Shown piece by piece: positions 31,370-41,795 of a stretch of 59,960 nucleotides of DNA. A model generated the notes under the pieces. The model did no database searches. It saw only the letters and a list, made by a program, of their open reading frames with translations, and had not been told where the DNA came from. The position numbers were made by a program, and so were the translations under genes. The DNA comes from Pseudorhodobacter antarcticus (GTDB lineage: Bacteria; Pseudomonadota; Alphaproteobacteria; Rhodobacterales; Rhodobacteraceae), in contig NZ_FOCO01000021.1 of NCBI RefSeq assembly GCF_900110135.1, positions 1 through 59,960 of the forward strand, given 5' to 3'. Every line of letters starts with the position of its first letter. Within the stretch, counting starts at the first letter, position 1.

Positions 31370-31447
31370 GGCATCGCAGGCCGCTGGCTTGCACCAAGGG
31401 GCCCTGTGGCCTATATCCCCCTTTCTTGCCATGAACCGGGGGCTGCC

Positions 31448-32542
31448 ATGATTCCAACGCCGTATTACTTGATTGATAAGGCACGGCTGGCGGCCAATAT
31501 GACCGCCATGGACCGCTTGCGCGAGCTGTCGGGCGCGAAATGTTTGCTGGCGCTGAAATGCTTTGCGACCTGGCCCGCGTTTGACGCGATGCGCGACCAT
31601 ATGGACGGCACCACGTCATCCAGCCTGTATGAATTGCGGTTGGGGCGGGAGCGGTTTGGCAAGGAAACTCACGCTTATTCCGTGGCTTGGGCGGCAGATG
31701 AGGTGACGGAGGCGGTGACTTACGCCGACAAGATTATCTTTAATTCCATCAGCCAATTGTTGCGGTTTGACGCGGAAACGGCGGGGATTGCACGCGGGTT
31801 GCGCTTGAACCCGCAGTTTTCGACATCGCATTTTGATTTGGCGGACCCGGCGCGGCCATTTAGCCGTTTGGGCGAATGGGATTTGGCAAAATTGGAGGCG
31901 GTGAAGGATAAAATTTCCGGCGTGATGATTCATTACAACTGCGAAAACGGCGATTTTGACCTGTTTGACCAGCAGTTGACGCGGATTGAAACCGAATTTG
32001 GCGCGTTTTTGGCAGGGCTGGAGTGGGTGAGCCTTGGCGGCGGCATCCACTTTACTGGCGATGGCTATCCGCTGGAACGGCTGGCTGCGCGGTTGGCAGC
32101 GTTTGCGCAGCGGTTTGGCGTGCAGGCGTATTTGGAACCGGGCGAGGCGGCGATCACTGGGGCGGCGAGTTTGGAAGTGTCGGTGCTGGATATTTTGAAC
32201 AACGGCAAGGACTTGGCGATTATCGACAGCTCGGTTGAGGCGCATATGCTGGATTTGCTGATCTACCGCGAACCTGCCAAGATGAACGTTTCGGGCGACC
32301 ACCCCTATATGATTTGCGGGAAATCCTGCCTTGCGGGCGATATTTTTGGCGAGTTTTCATTCCCCGCACCGCTGAAAATTGGCGATCGGTTGAGCATTGC
32401 GGACGCGGCGGGTTACACGATGGTTAAGAAAAACTGGTTCAACGGGGTGCGGATGCCCGCAATCGTTTTGCGCGAATTAGACGGGTCGCTGACCGTGGCG
32501 CGCACGTTTGATTATGCCGATTTTGAAGGCAATCTGGGCTGA
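31448..32542 (+). CDS. nspC: carboxynorspermidine decarboxylase
   Basis: A 364-residue fold-III PLP decarboxylase of the alanine-racemase type. The N-terminus TPYYLIDKARLAANM and the PLP lysine in GAKCLLALKCFATWP are characteristic. The glycine-rich phosphate site is LEWVSLGGGIHFTGDGYP, and the catalytic Cys region is YMICGKSCLAGDIFGEF. It decarboxylates carboxynorspermidine or carboxyspermidine, the last step of the alternative polyamine route. ATG 31448 is selected over an upstream in-frame start because it gives the family N-terminus. The partner synthase gene follows after 12 bases. Confidence 0.93.
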   Translation: MIPTPYYLIDKARLAANMTAMDRLRELSGAKCLLALKCFATWPAFDAMRDHMDGTTSSSLYELRLGRERFGKETHAYSVAWAADEVTEAVTYADKIIFNSISQLLRFDAETAGIARGLRLNPQFSTSHFDLADPARPFSRLGEWDLAKLEAVKDKISGVMIHYNCENGDFDLFDQQLTRIETEFGAFLAGLEWVSLGGGIHFTGDGYPLERLAARLAAFAQRFGVQAYLEPGEAAITGAASLEVSVLDILNNGKDLAIIDSSVEAHMLDLLIYREPAKMNVSGDHPYMICGKSCLAGDIFGEFSFPAPLKIGDRLSIADAAGYTMVKKNWFNGVRMPAIVLRELDGSLTVARTFDYADFEGNLG

Positions 32543-32554
32543 AGGAGGCGGGAT

Positions 32555-33793
32555 ATGAAACGCACTGTTTTGATCATTGGCGCGGGCGGCGTGGCACAGG
32601 TTGTGGCGCATAAATGCGCGCAAAATAACGATATTTTGGGCGATTTGCATATTGCCAGCCGCACGGTTGCCAAGTGCGAGGCGATTATAGATTCGGTCCG
32701 TGCCAAAGGGGCGATGAAGATTGCGGGCGATTTTGGCGTTCACACGTTGGACGCGATGGATGTTGCTGCGGTGGCGGCGTTGATTGGGCAGACGGGCGCG
32801 CAGATTGTGATCAATGTCGGCTCGCCGTTTGTGAATATGACGGTGTTGGAGGCCTGTATTCAGACGGGTGCGGCCTGTATCGACACCGCGATTCACGAGG
32901 ATCCGACGAAGGTGTGCGAGACGCCGCCGTGGTACGGCAATTATGAATGGAAGCGGCGCGAGGCCTGTAAAGCTGCGGGCGTGACGGCGATTTTGGGCGC
33001 AGGGTTCGATCCGGGTGTGGTCAACGCGTTTGCGCGCTATGCCGTGGATGCTTGCATGGATACTGTGGAAAGCATTGATATTGTTGATATTAATGCAGGC
33101 AGCCACGGGCGCTATTTTTCCACCAACTTTGACCCCGAGATCAATTTTCGCGAATTTACGGGCACGGTTTATGCGTGGCAGGGCGGCGAATGGACCGAAA
33201 ACCGCATGTTTGAGGTGATGCGTGAGGATGATTTGCCCGTGGTGGGGCGGCATAAGAGCTATCTGTCCGGGCATGATGAGGTGCATTCGCTGGCTGCGCG
33301 GTATCCCCACGCCGATGTGCGGTTTTGGATGGGGTTTAGCGACCATTATATTAACGTGTTTACCGTATTGCAGAATTTGGGCTTGTTGTCGGAGCAGCCC
33401 GTGGTGACGGCGGAGGGGCTGGAAGTGGTGCCCCTGAAGCTGGTGAAAGCGGTGTTGCCGGACCCATCGAGTTTGGCGCCGGATTATACAGGCAAGACAT
33501 GTATTGGCGATTTTGTGCGGGGCGTGAAGGACGGCAAGCCTGTCGAGGTGTTTGTGTACAACACGTCCGACCACGCGCAGGCGTTTGCGGAGGTGGGCAG
33601 CCAAGGGATTTCCTATACCGCCGGGGTGCCGCCCGTGGCCGCTGCGATGTTGATTGCGAGCGGGGTTTGGGACGTGGGCCACATGGCGAATGTGGAAGAT
33701 TTGGACCCGAAGCCGTTTTTGGCGCTGCTGAACCGCATTGGCTTGCCGACGCGGATTAAGGATGCTGATGGGGACCGCGCGCTGGTGCTATAG
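32555..33793 (+). CDS. carboxynorspermidine/carboxyspermidine synthase (saccharopine dehydrogenase-like)
   Basis: A 412-residue NAD(P)H-dependent reductase with a Rossmann start TVLIIGAGGVAQVVAHKCAQ and the middle part VINVGSPFVNMTVLEACIQTGAACIDTA followed by ILGAGFDPGVVNAFARYA. It condenses aspartate semialdehyde with a diamine to give the carboxy-polyamine used by NspC. A strong AAGGAGGCGGGAT lies before ATG 32555. The pair is an operon for spermidine or norspermidine synthesis independent of SAM decarboxylase. Its 3' end overlaps the 3' end of the reductive dehalogenase gene by six bases. Confidence 0.92.
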   Translation: MKRTVLIIGAGGVAQVVAHKCAQNNDILGDLHIASRTVAKCEAIIDSVRAKGAMKIAGDFGVHTLDAMDVAAVAALIGQTGAQIVINVGSPFVNMTVLEACIQTGAACIDTAIHEDPTKVCETPPWYGNYEWKRREACKAAGVTAILGAGFDPGVVNAFARYAVDACMDTVESIDIVDINAGSHGRYFSTNFDPEINFREFTGTVYAWQGGEWTENRMFEVMREDDLPVVGRHKSYLSGHDEVHSLAARYPHADVRFWMGFSDHYINVFTVLQNLGLLSEQPVVTAEGLEVVPLKLVKAVLPDPSSLAPDYTGKTCIGDFVRGVKDGKPVEVFVYNTSDHAQAFAEVGSQGISYTAGVPPVAAAMLIASGVWDVGHMANVEDLDPKPFLALLNRIGLPTRIKDADGDRALVL

Positions 33794-36700
33794 GTCGATG
33801 TGCAACGTGCCGTTGGGTTCGGCGGCACGCGAACAGCACAGGATGACGCGGGTTTCGCGTTCGGTTTTTGACAGGACATAATCGCGATGTTCCACCGCTT
33901 GGCCCGGTGGAATGGCAACTGCGCACACGCCGCAAATGCCATCGGCGCACTTGGTGGTGATGGGGAACCCATTGGCGGCCAGCACATCAGTGGCGGATTG
34001 ATTTGCCGGGATGTGTAGGATTTTGTTGGATTTTGTCAGATGCAGGGCGAAGGGGTGGTTGACCCAATCGGGGGTTTCGGGCGTTGCGAAAAATTCGCGG
34101 GCCAGCGCAGTTTCGGGCCAATTGTGGGCGGTGGCAGCGGCGAAAACCGCGTCCATGTAGCGGGGGGAGCCGCAGGTGTAGAGTTTGTGGCCGGGCGTGT
34201 ATTCGGGGATGATTTGGGCAAAGTTGGCGCGGGTGGTGTGGTGAATGTGGGCGTTGTTGGCCCATGGGGCGGCTTGGATTTCGGCGGTGAACCCTGCGGA
34301 GTTTGTGGAGTAATGCAGCGCAAAATCGCGGGTTAGCGCGTGCAGGCGGTGCGCCATGGTCAGCATGGGGGTGACGCCGATGCCGCCTGCCATGAGGAGT
34401 GAAAAGGGGGCGGATTCGGTTAGCGGGAAGTGGTTGTGCGGCGCGCTGATGAACAGGCGGCGGCCGGGGTGGAAGATGCGGTGCATCAGCGCGGAGCCGC
34501 CGCGGCCGTTTGGTTCACGCAAAAGGCCGAGGACGTATTTTGAGGCGTCGGCGGGGTCGCCTGCCAATGAGTATTGGCGCTGGTATTCGGGGGCCACGAC
34601 CACGTCGATATGCGCGCCGGCGGTGAAGGGGGGCAGATCGGCGCCATCGGCGCGGCGCAGCTCGAACCGGGCGGTGTCGGGGGTGAGGTCATCCCTTTTG
34701 GTGATGATGACCGGGAAAACCGGCGGCGCGGCCAGCGGTTTTGGGCCGGGGGCGAGGGTTGTGGTATCGCCGCGCGCCAGTTGCGCCTTGTAATCGGCGG
34801 GCAGCAGGAGTTGGCGGTAGCGGGCGATCCCTTCCTCTCGGTTAATCGGCTGGGTCACGGGATAGGGGTGGGGCATGACGTCGGCGGGGTAAACGGCGAG
34901 GGTTTGATCTTTGTATTGCAGGTTGATTTGCGGGCTGATGCCGCGCGTGTTGGTAGCGCGGGCGGTGATGTAGCGCCCCGCGCTTGGGTCCAGCTCAATA
35001 TCCCACCACCATTTTTTCACCGGATTGATGCCGCCGCGACCGAGCTTATCGTCGAGTGCGGCAAGCGCGGGGGCAGTTTGCGGGGCTTTCATCGCGACCC
35101 AGCGCACGGCGGATTCGGCGAACAACCCCTCAAGGTTCCACGGGCAGGTTTTCATGCAGCGACCACACATGCCGCCCGCCGCGTTGGTCAGGCGGTAGCG
35201 GGTGCATTTTTCGGCGTCGGATTTCCAAATCTCATATCCGTTGTACATCAACTTTGGCCCGGCGGTGATGGCCCCTGATGGACATTCACGCGCGCATTTG
35301 TTGCAAGAATTGCAGAAGGTTTGCAGGCCAAAGTCGATGGGCAGGTCGTGGTCCATCGGCATTGTGGTGGTGACGGTGCCCGATTTCAGGCGGGGGCCGA
35401 GATAGGGATTGAGGATAACCTCGCCAATCCGGCTCACCTCTCCCAAGCCCGAGAGCAGGAGAAGGGGCGGTTGCAGCACCTCGCCGTCAATCACGGAATG
35501 GACGCGGGCATCGAACCCCATACGGCGGATTTGTTCGCCGATCACACCGCCCAGCAGGGAAAAGCGCAGGTAAGCGCGCATGGATTGGGCCACCGAAATC
35601 CAGTCATCGCCGGACGCGCCCTCCATCGTCTCATGCCCTTGGTCGAGCAGCAGGTTGACGGCATGGGGGTGGCGGGCGTCGATTGGATCGCCGTTGGAGC
35701 CGTGCGAGTACCACGCCCATTCGGGCACGCGGCACAGGCCCACGGCATCGGCGGAGAGGTAATAGCTGGCCGCTTTCAGGTTTTGGGCGTTGGTTTTGGG
35801 GTTGGCGGCGTTGGCGGATATTGGGCCGCGCGGGCCACCGAATTGCAGCAGCAACAGCGCACCAAGGGCACGGCGGGCACAGGCGCCGATCGGGCTTTTG
35901 ACGACATAATAACCGCCCTTGGCCACGTCTTGGACGGATTTTCCCATGTCGCCAAACAGGGCGCGGGCGAAAAATTCGGCGCGTTTGGGGAAACGCGGGA
36001 TGCGGGGTTCGTCCATATAAGTGGTTGGTTTTTTGACACGTTTTAGGGTTTCAAACGGATAGGGGCCAAGGTGAAAAGGGCGGTTGGCAAAGGGGTGGGC
36101 GGTTTTGGCGGAGCGCGCGGAATGGCGACCCACCTGCCAGTCGGGGCCGTGGCTGTGCCAGCCGTTGCGGCCTGCGTTGGGGGCGAGGGGTTGGTCGGGG
36201 ACCAGTTCCATCGTGGTGGTCACGGCGGCCAGCGCAAAGCGTTTGCCGACATAGGGCGCGGTGCCGGTTTCATCCACCAGCCCCGCGCTGGCAGCAAGGC
36301 GCAGCAGGTCAACATCGGACGTGCTGGCGGAATGGGCGCGGGCGGGGTGGCCGAGAAGGCGTAGGTAGCTGGAGATCACCACTGCGGTGTTGTTGGCCAG
36401 CAGGGCAGCGCGGTGGGTTTGGGTGCCATCCAACCAATCGGTGCCGGGTTCATCCGTCTCCGGGTCGCGGGTGTATTCCACAAGGAAAACAAGAGCGTGG
36501 CTGTGGTGCGGGATGGGGGCATGGGCCATGCGGGCGGCGTCGAGGACATCGGCGTAAATCTGATCTATGCCAGCGGCGTGGGTGGCGGGTTGGCCCTGTT
36601 CGAGTTCCGCGCGCAGGGCGTTGATGCCGGGGTTGCGGTGCGGGGTTTTTAAGTGGTGATCGGGGTGCAGGGCCGCGATACCGACCATTGAGGCGTCAAA

Positions 36701-36976
36701 ATAATAGCTGGCGGATTTAAGGTGATCGGAGCGCGCGGCGGGGTTTTCGGGGATTTCGGCGGGGCCATGGGCCAGCGCGCCATCGCGGACCGTATCGAAC
36801 ATGCCCATGAAGCGCGACATGGCGTGGGTAAGGTTTTCGGGGTCTGGGTGTGTGAAATCAAGAGGTTGCGGGGTGGGCAGGTGTGTAAGGTTCACCGGGC
36901 CTGCGTGCCGCGCCAGACGTTCCAAAGGAAAGGGACCGAGATGTACGGGGCGATCCTTGATGGAAAACAGGCGCAT
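33788..36976 (-). CDS. self-sufficient cytosolic reductive dehalogenase, BhbA type
   Basis: A 1062-residue fusion. Residues 8-250 and 298-520 are two diverged copies of one half: RPVHLGPFPLERL matches RPFHLGPYPFETL, and DHLKSASYYFDASMVGI matches QNLKAASYYLSADAVGL. The second copy is the corrinoid-binding RdhA core, followed by two ferredoxin-type clusters: C555, C558, C561, C565 (CNSCNKCARECPSGAI) and C591, C604, C607, C611. From about 755 a phthalate-dioxygenase-reductase-like module follows: flavin site RQYSL (800-804), nucleotide loop LLMAGGIGVTPML (861-873), plant-type 2Fe-2S C1010, C1015, C1018 and C1047 or C1048. No Tat signal, so cytosolic and non-respiratory. By spacing, Tyr423 with Arg485 may match the Tyr-Lys or Tyr-Arg pair of characterised enzymes. 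It should remove halogen from an organohalide at NAD(P)H expense; the substrate is unknown. Confidence 0.9.
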   Translation of the reverse strand: MRLFSIKDRPVHLGPFPLERLARHAGPVNLTHLPTPQPLDFTHPDPENLTHAMSRFMGMFDTVRDGALAHGPAEIPENPAARSDHLKSASYYFDASMVGIAALHPDHHLKTPHRNPGINALRAELEQGQPATHAAGIDQIYADVLDAARMAHAPIPHHSHALVFLVEYTRDPETDEPGTDWLDGTQTHRAALLANNTAVVISSYLRLLGHPARAHSASTSDVDLLRLAASAGLVDETGTAPYVGKRFALAAVTTTMELVPDQPLAPNAGRNGWHSHGPDWQVGRHSARSAKTAHPFANRPFHLGPYPFETLKRVKKPTTYMDEPRIPRFPKRAEFFARALFGDMGKSVQDVAKGGYYVVKSPIGACARRALGALLLLQFGGPRGPISANAANPKTNAQNLKAASYYLSADAVGLCRVPEWAWYSHGSNGDPIDARHPHAVNLLLDQGHETMEGASGDDWISVAQSMRAYLRFSLLGGVIGEQIRRMGFDARVHSVIDGEVLQPPLLLLSGLGEVSRIGEVILNPYLGPRLKSGTVTTTMPMDHDLPIDFGLQTFCNSCNKCARECPSGAITAGPKLMYNGYEIWKSDAEKCTRYRLTNAAGGMCGRCMKTCPWNLEGLFAESAVRWVAMKAPQTAPALAALDDKLGRGGINPVKKWWWDIELDPSAGRYITARATNTRGISPQINLQYKDQTLAVYPADVMPHPYPVTQPINREEGIARYRQLLLPADYKAQLARGDTTTLAPGPKPLAAPPVFPVIITKRDDLTPDTARFELRRADGADLPPFTAGAHIDVVVAPEYQRQYSLAGDPADASKYVLGLLREPNGRGGSALMHRIFHPGRRLFISAPHNHFPLTESAPFSLLMAGGIGVTPMLTMAHRLHALTRDFALHYSTNSAGFTAEIQAAPWANNAHIHHTTRANFAQIIPEYTPGHKLYTCGSPRYMDAVFAAATAHNWPETALAREFFATPETPDWVNHPFALHLTKSNKILHIPANQSATDVLAANGFPITTKCADGICGVCAVAIPPGQAVEHRDYVLSKTERETRVILCCSRAAEPNGTLHIDL

Positions 36977-37044
36977 TTCGGTTCCTTGGTGACCCGTGTT
37001 GCGGAAACCTTGGGCAGACGGGGCGCAATGTCAATTGGTGGTGC

Positions 37045-37074
37045 AAAAGGGCGCCCCAAGGAACGCCCTTTTTT
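37045..37074 (-). terminator. intrinsic terminator after the sugar-type ABC operon
   Basis: AAAAGGGCG (37045-37053) and CGCCCTTTT (37064-37072) form a nine-base stem around a ten-base loop, with T-runs on both strands. It lies 17 bases after the binding-protein stop and 69 bases before the dehalogenase start, so it should partly or wholly separate the two transcripts. Confidence 0.85.
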
Positions 37075-37090: not shown

Positions 37091-38137
37091 TTATTTGCCC
37101 CAGATTGCTGAATACGCCTCACGGTAGCCGTTTTGTGGATCAAAGCTGTTGCTGTCGCCAGAGGCGGCAAGACCAGCCTCAGTCACCAGCGCGGGCGCGG
37201 TGATGTAGCCTGAACACGCCTCACCTTGCACGGCGCGGTTCATTTCATCGACCATTTGCCAGCCTTGCAGGTTCAAAGGTTCGGCCACGGTGATTGCCTG
37301 GTATTGCCCGGTGCGGATGCGTTGAAACGCCGCCTCGGACCCATCGCCAGCGGAGCCTGCAAGCGGGTTGGATTTGCCATCAATGCCAGCCGCAGCAAGC
37401 GCCGGGCCCATAAAGTCGAAATAGAGGTCGTTGATCGCCAAAGAATGGGTCCATTTGTCACCATATTTTTGCAGCAAGGACGTGGTGAGCGGACCCATGC
37501 GCGCGGACGTGTCGGCGATGGGGGTGTCGACGTATTCCAGCACGGTGCCGCCCATGGATTCGATGGTTTCTTTGATGCGGTCGGCCTTGGCAATCGCGAT
37601 TTCATAGGTGCTGTCGGTGAAGATGATGGCGCCCATGTCTGTGCCCCCCTCCATCGCCCATTTCGCGGCGGTTTCGGACACGGTCATCGCATCGGTGGAG
37701 ACGTTGGCGAAAATGCCGTTGGGGATGTCGCAGCCAATTTGCGGGCCGGAATGCCACGCGACCATCGGGATGTTGGCGGCTTTGATGCCTTCAATCGCGG
37801 CCTGTTGTTCCATCGCGTCAAAGCCGTTGATGATGATGCCTGCGGGTTGCAGGGCCATCGCCTGACCAAATGCCGCCGTGCGCCCTTGGACGGAGCCTGC
37901 GCCATCAATCACGCGGACGGTCCAGCCGATTTTGGCGGCTGCTTCCTCTACCCCAGTTGTCACACCAAGGATGCCGCCGTTTTTCAGATCGCCTGCGAGG
38001 ACGACGATGAGTTTGGCATCGGCGGCCTTTGGGCCTGTGGTGGGGCCGTCAAAAGCGGTTTGGGCAAAGGCGGGTAGGCCGAGGGTGAGGGCGGTTGTGC
38101 CTGCGAGAAGGGTGGCGATAAAGGTTCGTTTCAGCAT
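37091..38137 (-). CDS. sugar-type ABC transporter periplasmic binding protein (RbsB-like)
   Basis: A 348-residue exported protein with a signal peptide (LKRTFIATLLAGTTALTLGLPAFA) and a type-1 periplasmic binding fold of the Peripla_BP_4 class. ALQPAGIIINGFDAMEQQAAIEGIKAANIPMVAWHSG holds the usual second-strand pattern, and WTHSLAINDLYFDFMGPALAAAG the hinge region. The ligand is unknown; relatives bind ribose, xylose, autoinducer-2 or other polyols. It is the last of a three-gene ATPase-permease-binding protein operon, an unusual position for a binding protein, and the operon is divergent from a LacI regulator. Confidence 0.88.
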   Translation of the reverse strand: MLKRTFIATLLAGTTALTLGLPAFAQTAFDGPTTGPKAADAKLIVVLAGDLKNGGILGVTTGVEEAAAKIGWTVRVIDGAGSVQGRTAAFGQAMALQPAGIIINGFDAMEQQAAIEGIKAANIPMVAWHSGPQIGCDIPNGIFANVSTDAMTVSETAAKWAMEGGTDMGAIIFTDSTYEIAIAKADRIKETIESMGGTVLEYVDTPIADTSARMGPLTTSLLQKYGDKWTHSLAINDLYFDFMGPALAAAGIDGKSNPLAGSAGDGSEAAFQRIRTGQYQAITVAEPLNLQGWQMVDEMNRAVQGEACSGYITAPALVTEAGLAASGDSNSFDPQNGYREAYSAIWGK

Positions 38138-38158
38138 GTTGGATCCTCCCATTACATG

Positions 38159-39178
38159 TTATTTTTTGGCGCCTTTTTTGCGCTGTGCGTAGCCTGCGAT
38201 GCCGATTGCGATCAGCAAGGTAAGGCCGTTGAACATCGGCTCGACCCAGAACGAGCCGCCGAATTGTTGGATGCCGGAAATGCCGACGGCAAGGATGACA
38301 ACGCCGACGATGGTGCCCCAGACGTTGACGCGCCCCGGTTTGATGGTGGTGGAGCCGAGGAACGCACCAACAAGGGCGGGCAGCAGGAATTCAAGGCCGA
38401 CGCTGGCCTGCCCGATGCGCAGTTTTGAGGCGAGCAGAACGCCTGCGAGAGCGGTGAGGGTGCCCGAGGTGATGAAAGCCCCCATGACGAATTTGCGGGT
38501 GGGAATGCCGTTCAGCGCCGCCGCTTTTGGGTTCGCGCCGATGGCGTAAAGGTAGCGACCGATAGGGGTGTATTCAAGAATAAGCCAGAGTGCGACCGTG
38601 ATGATGAGGACGTAAAACCCGGTGATGGGCAGGCCCAGAACAAAGGTGCCATTGAGGGCATAAAACCCGTCTGGCAGTTGGCCGACAACTTGGCGACCGC
38701 CCGTGTGCCACAGGGCGAGGGCGTATAAAACGGTGCCAGTGCCAAGGGTGGCGATGAAGGCATCGATCTTTGCCACCTCCACCAGCAGCCCGTTGAGGGC
38801 ACCCGTGAACGCGCCGAGGGCGAGGACGACAAGCACGGCGATGGGCCAAGGAAAGCCGTAGAGGGTTTGTAGGCTGATCGCCAAAATGTGCCACAAAACA
38901 ATGCCATAACCGACGGTCAGGTCGATGCGGCCTGCGACCATGGGGATCATCGCGGCGAGCGACAACAGGGCGATGATGGATTTATCGGAGACAATCGCGC
39001 GCAGGTTCAGTTTGGTGGGAAAGGTGTTTGGCAGCAGGATGGAGAAGAGGATGATGAGGCCGAACATGAGGATCACCAGCCCGTAAACCGGGGCCAGCCG
39101 CCAGAGCTTCGCACCAAAGGACAGATGCGCAATCTCATCCTTGGTGGGTTCCAGCGCGGCAGATTCGATCGAATTCAT
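38159..39178 (-). CDS. sugar-type ABC transporter permease (RbsC/XylH-like)
   Basis: A 339-residue membrane protein with eight or more hydrophobic helices and the family signatures IALLSLAAMIPMVAGRIDLTVG, GAFTGALNGLLVEVAKIDAFIATLGTG and GANPKAAALNGIPTRKFVMGAF. One permease gene implies a homodimer in the membrane, as in the ribose-type systems. ATG 39178 (MNSIESAALEP) is used, eight bases after the ATPase stop. The ligand is unknown. Confidence 0.9.
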   Translation of the reverse strand: MNSIESAALEPTKDEIAHLSFGAKLWRLAPVYGLVILMFGLIILFSILLPNTFPTKLNLRAIVSDKSIIALLSLAAMIPMVAGRIDLTVGYGIVLWHILAISLQTLYGFPWPIAVLVVLALGAFTGALNGLLVEVAKIDAFIATLGTGTVLYALALWHTGGRQVVGQLPDGFYALNGTFVLGLPITGFYVLIITVALWLILEYTPIGRYLYAIGANPKAAALNGIPTRKFVMGAFITSGTLTALAGVLLASKLRIGQASVGLEFLLPALVGAFLGSTTIKPGRVNVWGTIVGVVILAVGISGIQQFGGSFWVEPMFNGLTLLIAIGIAGYAQRKKGAKK

Positions 39179-39185
39179 AAGGCCC

Positions 39186-40679
39186 TCATGCAACTTCTGA
39201 GGCGGAAGCCGCCTGAATTAATGATTCTGTGGACAGGCCCACGCCGGACAGTTCCGCCACCACTTGGCCGCGCGAAAACACGATGGCGCGGTGGCAAATA
39301 TTGGCGATTTCTTCAAAATCTGTGGACACCACAAGCACACCCATACCGGAGGCGAGGGCATTGAAGAGGAGGTGGTAAATCTCGGCCTTGGCACCGACAT
39401 CGACGCCTGCAGTGGGATCCTCGGCGATCAGGAAACGGCGGTTTGTGTCCAGCCAACGGCCCACAACGATCTTTTGTTGGTTGCCGCCCGACAGCGCCTC
39501 AATCGCCAAAGTGGGGTCGTTTGGCGACAGGCCCACGCGCGTGCCAAGCGCGCGGGTGGCGATGTTTTCCGCCTTTGCCCCAAGGAAATTTAACAGACCG
39601 CGACCCGTGGCGGCGGGGTTCAGGAAGGCGTTTTCGCGAATGGTCAGGGAGGGGGCGATGCTTTCCACCACGCGGTCGCGGGCAACGAATCCGATGCCCG
39701 ACAGCATGGCGGCGCGGGGGGTGGCAAGGTTGGGTGCGTGGCCTTCAAGGCTGATTTGACCATCATGGGGGCACAGGCCAAAAAGGCTGCGACCGACATC
39801 TTCGTGCCCGGCACCGCGCAGACCGACGAGGCCGACGAGTTCGCCACATTTCACGTCGAAACTGACGGGGCCAACGTTCGGGGTTTTCAGGTTTTGGACG
39901 GTCAGAATGGCGTCGCCCGCCTGCACATCGGGGCGGTTGATTTCGCGGGCTTTGCGGCCCACGATTAGGCCCACCAATTCTTCGGCGGTGGTGTGTTGAA
40001 TGTCGCGCATGCCGACCATTTGCCCGTCGCGCAGCACGGCAACGCGGTCTGCGATTTGAAAAATCTCATCAAGGCGATGGCTGACATAGATCATGCCAAC
40101 ACCTTTGGCCTTGAGCGGGCGCAGGGCGGAAAACAGACGATCCACCTCATCCGCGGGGAGGCTGGCGGTGGGTTCATCAAGCACAAGGAAATCACATTCC
40201 ACGGCAAGGGCACGGGCGATGGCGACCAGCGATTTTTCGGTGCGCGACAGGTTCGACACGCGGGTGGTTGGGGCGAAATCGGCATCAACCAAGGCCAGTG
40301 CGCGGCGCGCCACATCTTCGGTGCCGCGCCAGTTTATGCGGCCGCCTTTGCGGGCGTAACCAATGGCGAGGGCGATGTTTTCGGCAACCGACATCCATTC
40401 GATCAAACCCAAATCTTGATGGATGAAAGCCACGGCTTGTTTCTGGCTGACCTTGCCTGCGACATGATCATAGCGTTTTCCATCAACGCTGACGGTGCCC
40501 GTGTCGGGGGCGTGGATGCCGCCCAACACCTTGATTAAAGTGGATTTTCCAGCCCCATTTTCACCCAGAAGGGCCACGATTTCACCGCGTTCGACGCGCA
40601 AGGACACGCCACGCAACGCCTGCGTTCCCCCAAAGCTTTTTACGATGCGGTCAAAGAACAGGCCGTCGGTTGTGGTCAT
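39186..40679 (-). CDS. sugar-type ABC transporter ATPase with two ABC domains (RbsA/XylG-like)
   Basis: A 497-residue tandem ABC ATPase. The first domain has Walker A ALLGENGAGKSTLIKVLGG and a weak signature LSRTEKSLVAIARAL. Walker B is CDFLVLDEPTASLPADEVD. The second has the usual degenerate Walker A VGLRGAGHEDVGRSLFGL, a good signature LSGGNQQKIVVGRWL and LIAEDPTAGVDVGAKAEIY. This layout is that of RbsA/XylG/MglA. ATG 40679 is chosen over an upstream GTG. It is the first gene of the operon; LacI-type operator sequences lie just upstream. Confidence 0.92.
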   Translation of the reverse strand: MTTTDGLFFDRIVKSFGGTQALRGVSLRVERGEIVALLGENGAGKSTLIKVLGGIHAPDTGTVSVDGKRYDHVAGKVSQKQAVAFIHQDLGLIEWMSVAENIALAIGYARKGGRINWRGTEDVARRALALVDADFAPTTRVSNLSRTEKSLVAIARALAVECDFLVLDEPTASLPADEVDRLFSALRPLKAKGVGMIYVSHRLDEIFQIADRVAVLRDGQMVGMRDIQHTTAEELVGLIVGRKAREINRPDVQAGDAILTVQNLKTPNVGPVSFDVKCGELVGLVGLRGAGHEDVGRSLFGLCPHDGQISLEGHAPNLATPRAAMLSGIGFVARDRVVESIAPSLTIRENAFLNPAATGRGLLNFLGAKAENIATRALGTRVGLSPNDPTLAIEALSGGNQQKIVVGRWLDTNRRFLIAEDPTAGVDVGAKAEIYHLLFNALASGMGVLVVSTDFEEIANICHRAIVFSRGQVVAELSGVGLSTESLIQAASASEVA

Positions 40680-40692
40680 GGATCCCCCCAAG

Positions 40693-40717
40693 GTTACCGA
40701 TTTGCGTTATCGGTAAC
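40693..40717. promoter_or_regulatory. LacI-type operator O1 upstream of the ABC operon
   Basis: GTTACCGAT (40693-40701) and ATCGGTAAC (40709-40717) form a perfect nine-base inverted repeat with a seven-base spacer. The right part also forms the 12-mer GTTATCGGTAAC (40706-40717). It fits GTTAnCGnTAAC, a LacI-family style site with a central CG. It begins 14 bases upstream of the ATPase start, so repressor bound there would block the operon. Confidence 0.8.
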
Positions 40718-40759
40718 GTGATGATATTTCTTGCATCACAGGATTTTGTCAAGCACTAA

Positions 40760-40771
40760 GTTACCGATAAC
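40760..40771. promoter_or_regulatory. LacI-type operator O2 near the regulator start
   Basis: GTTACCGATAAC matches the same GTTAnCGnTAAC pattern and is the exact reverse complement of the 12-mer in O1. The two 12-mers are 54 bases apart start to start, about five helical turns, which would allow looping. It ends 16 bases before the regulator ATG, so autoregulation is likely. Confidence 0.8.
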
Positions 40772-40787
40772 CCAAATGGGGGCGCGC

Positions 40788-41795
40788 ATGGCAAAGACGG
40801 ACAAGACCGGGCTGGAAGGGATCGCCCGCGCGGCGGGAGTTTCCAAAATGACCGTCAGCCGGGTGCTGCGCGGATCGGGCGGATTTTCGAATGAGACCCG
40901 TGACCGGGTGCTGGCCGAGGTGAAGCGGACAGGGTATTTGCCCAACCGATTGGCGGCGGCATTTGGGCCTGCGCAATCATCAACGCTGGTGGGCGTGTGC
41001 GTGCCCCGGTTCACATCGTCGCTGTTTGGTGCGGTGCTGGAAGCGACGAACACGGCGTTCGCGCGGTTGGGATACCAGACCATGATCGGCAGCCACGACC
41101 AGTTGCCGGAGGAGGAGGAGGCGTGGCTGCGCGGGCTGGCATCGTGGCGGCCAGCGGGGGTGATTTTGGCAGGGCGCCACCATTCACCCGGCACACGTGA
41201 TTTGCTGCGCGCGATGACAGTGCCCGTGGTGGAAATCTGGGATTTGACCACCACGCCGATTGATATTTCGATTGGGTTTTCGCATTACGATACCGGGTTT
41301 GAAATGGCGCAGTTTTTGGCCAGTCGCGGGCGTAGGCGCATTGGATATGTGGGCGCGCTGGCGGGGGTAAAGTCGATGGGCCGCGCGCGGTTTGACGGGT
41401 TTCGGGCGGGGCTGGCGGCGGCCGGGCAAACGGTGCAGGACATGGAGGTTTTGCACGACCGGCCGGGGTTTTATGCGGGATTTTATGGGGCGGAGGTGCT
41501 GCTGGGGCGCAGCCCGCGCCTCGATGCGATCTATTTTCATGATGATGAAATGGCGATTGGGGGCATGGCCTATTGCGCGGCAAAAGGCGTGCAGGTGCCC
41601 GAAGATATTGGGATTGCAGGCTGGGGCGGGATGGAGGCGGCGTCAATTTTGCCCAAGCGATTGACCACCACGATTGTTCCGACCGCCAAGCTGGGAAAGG
41701 CGGCGGCGGAAGCGTTGGTGAGCCGGTTGCGCGGTGACGCGGTGCCCGATGTGACGCTGATTGCGACGAAATTGGTACCGGGCGGGACCGCTTAA
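40788..41795 (+). CDS. LacI-family transcriptional regulator
   Basis: A 335-residue regulator. The N-terminal helix-turn-helix reads LEGIARAAGVSKMTVSRVLRGSGGF with the hinge NRLAAAFGPAQSSTLVGV, and the ligand-binding core follows (SRGRRRIGYVGALAG, AIYFHDDEMAIGGMAYC). ATG 40788 behind a G-rich leader is supported by the position of the DNA-binding helix. It is divergent from the ABC operon with two copies of a matching operator between, so it most likely represses the transporter until its sugar or sugar-like effector binds. Its stop overlaps the xthA stop by four bases. Confidence 0.92.
   Translation: MAKTDKTGLEGIARAAGVSKMTVSRVLRGSGGFSNETRDRVLAEVKRTGYLPNRLAAAFGPAQSSTLVGVCVPRFTSSLFGAVLEATNTAFARLGYQTMIGSHDQLPEEEEAWLRGLASWRPAGVILAGRHHSPGTRDLLRAMTVPVVEIWDLTTTPIDISIGFSHYDTGFEMAQFLASRGRRRIGYVGALAGVKSMGRARFDGFRAGLAAAGQTVQDMEVLHDRPGFYAGFYGAEVLLGRSPRLDAIYFHDDEMAIGGMAYCAAKGVQVPEDIGIAGWGGMEAASILPKRLTTTIVPTAKLGKAAAEALVSRLRGDAVPDVTLIATKLVPGGTA

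Follow-up and report, generated by a model that had tools for sequence, protein, structure and literature searches.

We analyzed a 59,960-nucleotide stretch of the Pseudorhodobacter antarcticus genome (contig NZ_FOCO01000021.1, positions 1 to 59,960 of the forward strand; hereafter the window) and describe here one of its genes, rdhA, located at 33788-36976 on the minus strand. By analogy with two characterized relatives, NpRdhA of Nitratireductor pacificus and JtRdhA of Jhaorihella thermophila, the encoded protein is very probably a cytosolic, single-chain, corrinoid-dependent reductive dehalogenase (RdhA) that is driven by NAD(P)H and removes ortho bromine or iodine from phenols. The gene is present, and its product has the domain order, fold, catalytic residues and cluster cysteines of this enzyme type, carries an internal duplication and is under purifying selection. 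Papers cited below as "in part" were available as excerpts.

Domain architecture of RdhA

The rdhA frame starts with ATG, ends with a TAG that lies within its coordinates, encodes 1062 amino acids and contains no internal stop codon. We annotate it as a reductive dehalogenase of the self-sufficient, "catabolic" type using the open reading frame (ORF), NCBIfam and structure-profile matches and the ratio of nonsynonymous to synonymous substitution rates (dN/dS). The NCBIfam reductive dehalogenase model TIGR02486 matches with 181.7 bits against a cut-off of 160.35. Residues 1-107 together with 156-734 match the NpRdhA structure 4ras (E = 8e-168), and residues 758-1053 match phthalate dioxygenase reductase (PDOR) 2pia (E = 1.6e-51; by Foldseek, E = 1.7e-28). 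Pfam families Fer4_7 and Fer4_16 fall on the pair of 4Fe-4S motifs and Fer2 on the 2Fe-2S domain (E = 2.3e-5). An AlphaFold model of the whole protein, built on 46 aligned sequences, has a mean predicted local distance difference test score (pLDDT) of 84.7 and a predicted TM-score (pTM) of 0.84. Foldseek matches this model to NpRdhA with E = 5e-73, a target-normalised TM-score of 0.91-0.93 and about 40% identity.

From the N-terminus, and with all coordinates on the minus strand, residues 1-297 (36086-36976) form a vestigial RdhA-like half, which contains an insert at residues 108-155 (36512-36655) that NpRdhA does not have. Residues 298-552 (35321-36085) form the predicted corrinoid-binding core, as defined by alignment and Foldseek, with S465, M466, Y469 and K531. 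Residues 555-611 (35144-35314) carry the two 4Fe-4S motifs, C555/558/561/565 and C591/604/607/611, along with R595, and residues 753-1062 (33791-34720) make up a PDOR-type module for flavin, NAD(P)H and a plant-type 2Fe-2S cluster. The original prediction, made from the letters of the window and a list of its ORFs, had joined a half-copy, an RdhA core, two 4Fe-4S clusters and a reductase in one 1062-residue frame, and this layout is present almost to the residue. The reductase, placed at about 755-1062, is found at about 753-1062; the core, given as 298-520, is present too, and its end had been set too early, at 520 instead of about 552.

The predicted cytosolic location agrees with the earlier claim that there is neither a twin-arginine translocation (Tat) signal nor an anchor gene. 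Reading by eye, without a signal predictor, we found no twin-arginine motif in the first 35 residues. There is also no space for rdhB beside rdhA, which lies 114 bp from the upstream gene and whose stop overlaps the end of the convergent downstream gene by 6 bases; the rest of the genome was not searched for rdhB. The fold alone would also suit a respiratory reductive dehalogenase or a tRNA enzyme of the QueG kind, and the QueG model TIGR00276 does match weakly, at 26.2 bits. That score stands against a cut-off of 200, however, and a respiratory role sits badly with the missing motif, the lack of room for an adjacent rdhB, the fused reductase and the ranking of NpRdhA as top structure match, so that either identity is scarcely credible.

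Active site, clusters and proposed mechanism

Using the 4ras alignment, we mapped the catalytic residues F291, S422, M423, Y426, K488 and R552 of NpRdhA to F336, S465, M466, Y469, K531 and R595. All six are invariant in the 46 aligned proteins and in 87 fused proteins, a set comprising the window protein, 80 genome loci, one further genus-mate and five plasmid loci. The eight predicted 4Fe-4S cysteines are all there and, like the 2Fe-2S cysteines 1010/1015/1018/1047, do not vary in any of the 46. The roles given to catalytic and pocket residues come from PMC7565698 and PMC10463259 (both in part).

What follows on cofactors, electron transfer and mechanism, like the choice of halogen and the substrate range, is predicted from NpRdhA and JtRdhA. 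NAD(P)H would reduce the flavin of the C-terminal reductase module, and electrons would then pass one at a time from the 2Fe-2S cluster of the reductase through the two 4Fe-4S clusters to a base-off cobalamin in the core. S465, K531 and R595 would hold an ortho-bromo- or ortho-iodophenol while the reduced cobalt takes the halogen; Y469, with K531, would donate a proton, and halide and a less halogenated phenol would be released.

The link to cobalamin is supported by gene content. We took a census of neighbours at 85 loci (80 genome, 5 plasmid), covering up to 7 kb on each side, with many contigs shorter; its 3658 ORFs were called mechanically, antisense frames included, and grouped by single linkage, and ten of the clusters were labelled, each from one representative. 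A cluster of CobT type (dimethylbenzimidazole phosphoribosyltransferase; label from one member) lies near rdhA in six of the 85 loci (L004, L023, L031, L032, L041 and L069), at a median of about 2.3 kb, and a CobT gene is present in the host genome.

The duplicated N-terminal half

The half-duplication is real. Aligned with hhalign, the profile of residues 1-297 matches that of residues 298-552 over 222 columns (8-265 against 298-548) with 99.7% probability and E = 3e-25, as compared with E = 0.075-0.83 for the controls, for which we used ten column-shuffled profiles and two further domains of this protein. A diverged half-copy had been proposed at 8-250 and is borne out. Modelled alone, residues 1-296 reach a pLDDT of 83.6, and Foldseek ranks NpRdhA first for this model, followed by respiratory RdhA (E about 5e-9 to 5e-7) and QueG (E = 2e-6 to 3e-5). 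TM-scores to the respiratory RdhA and QueG structures are modest (0.35-0.47 by query length), which points to a fold in common and falls short of close superposition. The comparison of N-half and core proposed along with the original prediction supports the duplication by profile (E = 3e-25), and the half modelled alone has the RdhA/QueG fold. The two motifs named for this half, HLGPFPLERL and ASYYFDASMVGI, are found at residues 12-21 and 88-99.

The N-terminal copy had been said to lack cluster cysteines; residues 1-297 contain no cysteine whatever, and the counterparts of Y469 and K531 are A191 and A248. Duplication, an RdhA-like fold when modelled alone and alanine at the positions of the catalytic tyrosine and lysine support the reading as a structural pseudo-domain. 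This half would be a decayed copy of the core, standing where the respiratory dimer has its second subunit and carrying no active site. Instead of being vestigial, it might bind the substrate, the reductase module or another corrinoid. Twenty-eight of its columns are invariant in 37 of 37 sequences, and the insert at 108-155 is filled (35 or more residues) in all 87 fused proteins, as would suit a working domain. Its catalytic tyrosine and lysine are nevertheless alanines and its cysteines are gone, and the equivalent N-domain of NpRdhA binds no cobalamin and forms a dimer-like interface (PMC10463259, in part), all of which makes a second binding function improbable. The insert itself is probably the fusion-specific insert described for the JtRdhA model (PMC10463259, section 4, in part); NpRdhA is without it.

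Distribution, phylogeny and selection

Close homologues, the search for which had been proposed as a check, are many and include BhbA, which is 48.6% identical end to end. The 80 genome loci used here are the best of 450 encoding stretches that a genome scan yielded. Within the genus, five of nine genomes carry a full-length copy; any match is found in seven of nine, the other two being short only. Across the order, 186 of the 390 genomes sampled and 58 of 139 genera have a match at E <= 1e-100; the family is thus common in related bacteria, in about half of the genomes sampled. Among 72,556 plasmid records, eight carry the gene over at least 80% of its length, the BhbA plasmid among them.

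We built a tree of 87 proteins by a quick method, with Shimodaira-Hasegawa-like approximate likelihood ratio (SH-aLRT) support only and a midpoint root for drawing; JtRdhA was not included. The window protein groups with those of Pseudorhodobacter ferrugineus, P. wandonensis and Pseudorhodobacter sp. E13 (support 100). Their clade lies within 23 rows labelled alphaproteobacterial or unspecific (100), and the sister of this group comprises 31 rows, almost all with betaproteobacterial labels; the 54 together have support 100. The copy of one genus-mate (G004) falls elsewhere, as do the Roseobacter-type proteins. Three metagenome-assembled genomes, L074, L033 and L048, are labelled Flavobacteriales, Bordetella parapertussis and Fonsibacter, and their rdhA genes group with those of Rhodobacteraceae or Burkholderiales; they are probably mislabelled or mixed bins.

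Compared with three sister species, rdhA has a dN/dS of 0.10-0.13, against 0.02-0.14 for five neighbouring genes and the same kind of relatives; dS is 0.75-1.3, near saturation, so that these ratios are rough. Comparisons with the response regulator of L110 were excluded as an artefact, their 8-10% identity evidently reflecting a misread gene. On these values rdhA is under purifying selection. On the tree, the window protein has a terminal branch of 0.18, compared with 0.05-0.07 in its sisters, and a decaying gene was rejected at this dN/dS despite the longer branch. The window is likewise the more divergent row in the exoIII and carboxynorspermidine synthase genes, and at positions invariant in the other 45 rows the protein has a single change, L680I.

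Substrate range

Several observations weigh against the debrominase and deiodinase assignment. Pocket positions differ from those of NpRdhA, with A419, N452, K307, F310 and P311 replaced by V462, V495, A352, Y357 and V358, so that the substrate range of NpRdhA is not transferable in detail. BhbA is far from the window protein, across the root, and JtRdhA is not placed on the tree. In the search listings and excerpts consulted we saw no assayed member of the protein's own clade, and we found no aromatic-catabolism operon among the identified neighbours of rdhA in the window. Titles and abstract openings retrieved for Pseudorhodobacter or Limnohabitans with reductive dehalogenase contain nothing on this enzyme, and a query on gene duplication plus CblC found no paper.

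The clade could have another substrate range, such as chlorinated phenols or halophenols free of a carboxylate. Its pocket is unlike both that of NpRdhA and that of BhbA, from which the clade is separate. Val462 stands at the position where a change of A419 to Met shifts NpRdhA towards monohalogenated substrates, and the counterpart of Ala352 is K307, seen in one complex of NpRdhA to form a salt bridge with a carboxylate (PMC7565698, in part). On the other hand, the inner residues are identical, and the pocket string of the window recurs in the four Roseobacter-type rows L093, L095, L065 and L085, except at position 335 and, in L085, 358. In addition, bromo- and iodophenols are the substrates of JtRdhA, the one fused enzyme examined closely, and chlorinated phenols only inhibit it (PMC10463259, in part). 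We consider a different range unlikely and retain ortho-bromo- and ortho-iodophenols as the expected substrates.

Catabolism or detoxification

The gene had been predicted to encode a catabolic enzyme of the BhbA type; the self-sufficient architecture stands, with BhbA 48.6% identical and JtRdhA of the same layout, and a catabolic role is one of two readings. The same chemistry could serve detoxification, or recovery of a halogen-free phenol that is not used further, and not the feeding of ring cleavage. We searched the host genome (99.99% complete) for four common families of ring hydroxylation or ring cleavage. HpaB, LigB and intradiol dioxygenase have no match at E <= 1e-3, and PobA gives three partial model matches, none over the cut-off; in a protein search, the match to the PobA of Nitratireductor OM-1 extends over just 48 residues. 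The LigB-type subunit encoded on the BhbA plasmid pBHB has no match in the host either, a query for which there was no positive control. An intradiol dioxygenase occurs in four of nine genus genomes and, among the four with rdhA beside exoIII (G000, the host, with G002, G003 and G008), in G008 only. The missing matches and the sub-threshold PobA suggest that detoxification may fit better than carbon catabolism. In 13 of 85 loci rdhA is preceded, on its own strand, by a MarR-type gene at a median distance of 42 bp, which also favours detoxification.

Other results point the other way. Beyond the four families searched, ring degradation could run through homogentisate, gentisate or phenylacetyl-CoA routes, single-component phenol hydroxylases or vicinal-oxygen-chelate extradiol enzymes. 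In 14 control genomes, the HpaB, LigB and intradiol dioxygenase Pfam families were each found in only four, and PobA over the cut-off in one, so that absence of the three families is common anyway. Relatives lie near uptake genes of TctC or TRAP type (17 and 10 of 85 loci), and ring-cleavage dioxygenase genes adjoin rdhA in Nitratireductor OM-1 and on pBHB. On balance we give detoxification a little under even weight.

One further reading, which we rate below even odds, is that rdhA in this lineage is a lone gene, gained or lost at the exoIII site, whose product uses NADPH to detoxify natural bromo- and iodophenols, or to recycle their halide, in bacteria without the usual ring-cleavage genes, and that its clade has an as yet unassayed substrate range. 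The ecological point is the presence or absence of rdhA as one unit beside exoIII within a genus; together with the missing ring-pathway matches, it makes detoxification versus carbon gain directly testable. The protein is also a clean addition to a family useful for debromination under air.

Genomic site and neighbouring genes

In the window, rdhA is flanked by exoIII and by carboxynorspermidine genes. The latter (31406-33793) are a decarboxylase-like gene (nspC) and a synthase-like gene, both under the strict cut-offs of their models, and the synthase gene meets rdhA tail to tail in the 6-base overlap. In two genus-mates without rdhA (G001 and G007), exoIII and the synthase gene are about 0.55 kb apart with one small ORF of 149 amino acids between them. 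This small ORF begins like a secreted protein (L109 8552-9105 in G007; also in L110 of G001, in L113 and in L112). The same two neighbours flank rdhA in G002 and G008; the small ORF is kept between exoIII and rdhA in G008 and is gone from G002 and the window. G003 has exoIII, the small ORF and then rdhA, with only one flank in common; in the 10 kb beyond rdhA we did not find the synthase gene. The copy in G004 is distant (56%) and lies on a different contig from its exoIII.

Between exoIII and rdhA the window also carries a cassette (37094-41792) made up of a LacI regulator (40731-41792, plus strand) and a sugar-type ABC transporter (39189-40691, 38162-39193 and 37094-38152, minus strand). At this site it is confined to the window: in the three sister species whose rdhA also stands beside exoIII, the gaps between the two genes, 21, 596 and 1092 bp, are too small to hold it. 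The cassette is probably unrelated to rdhA. As a conserved partner of rdhA the transporter was rejected: with E <= 1e-10 and half of the query aligned, its binding protein matched only its own locus among 91 loci, and permease and ATPase gave only 27-36% matches, in two and five loci.

Between the binding-protein gene and rdhA we noted by eye a minus-strand hairpin, GGGCG(N10)CGCCC followed by TTTT (37045-37068), a possible terminator separating the ABC genes from rdhA. It is not listed by the scan of this region, the limit of which its 10-nt loop exceeds. A candidate promoter element, TTGACA (37029-37034, minus strand), lies 58 nt before the rdhA ATG. The 12-mer around it, CAATTGACATTG, stands at the same distance in L113 (G008) and was not found within 150 bp upstream of rdhA in L112 and L114, so that in some species rdhA may retain a promoter of its own; a promoter scan called no sigma-70-type promoter at 37029-37034.

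No neighbour is universal across the 85 loci. The commonest clusters are short-chain dehydrogenase (22), TctC (17), MarR, LysR and enoyl-CoA hydratase (13 each) and DctP (10). The MarR-type cluster (L028/L112 and 12 further loci) is a candidate halophenol sensor.

Comparison with known systems

Phthalate dioxygenase reductase, the relative of the C-terminal module, is a free-standing electron-transfer protein with the order flavin, NAD and plant-type 2Fe-2S. The respiratory RdhA PceA (4uqu; E = 2e-27) shares the corrinoid core and the two 4Fe-4S clusters with our protein but has neither the duplication (PMC10463259, in part) nor the reductase; respiratory enzymes are described as Tat-exported and membrane-anchored through RdhB. 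The Roseobacter debrominase Ros_A3X954 was rejected as a model: judged by its motif positions, its chain is shorter and of a different type, and the enzyme is sensitive to oxygen and was assayed with titanium citrate and methyl viologen (PMC13101508, in part).

NpRdhA (4ras, 6zxu and 6zy1) resembles the window protein over residues 1-107 and 156-734, in fold and in having the same duplication (PMC10463259, in part), but its solved chain lacks both the fused reductase and the insert at 108-155. BhbA (WP_015585978), from plasmid pBHB of Comamonas sp. 7D-2, is of the same length class and domain order, 48.6% identical over residues 1-1062, with identical inner catalytic residues. It differs in forming a separate deep branch, in having S, S, S and A at the positions of A352, Y357, V462 and V495, and in the setting of its gene, which an IncP plasmid carries amid TctC-type genes and genes for ring-cleavage dioxygenase, whereas the window gene lies between exoIII and carboxynorspermidine genes.

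By the description in PMC10463259 (JBC 2023, in part), JtRdhA (WP_104007082) likewise has no Tat signal, a duplicated cobalamin-binding domain, two 4Fe-4S motifs and a PDOR fusion, with an insert relative to NpRdhA and the Y/K/R set in common. It is an NADPH-driven, oxygen-tolerant debrominase and deiodinase that consumes one NADPH for each product formed; its substrates are bromo- and iodophenols, chlorinated ones acting as inhibitors only. The same paper already describes the vestigial duplication and the reductase fusion; the window protein thus belongs to a kind already known in print, pseudo-domain included.

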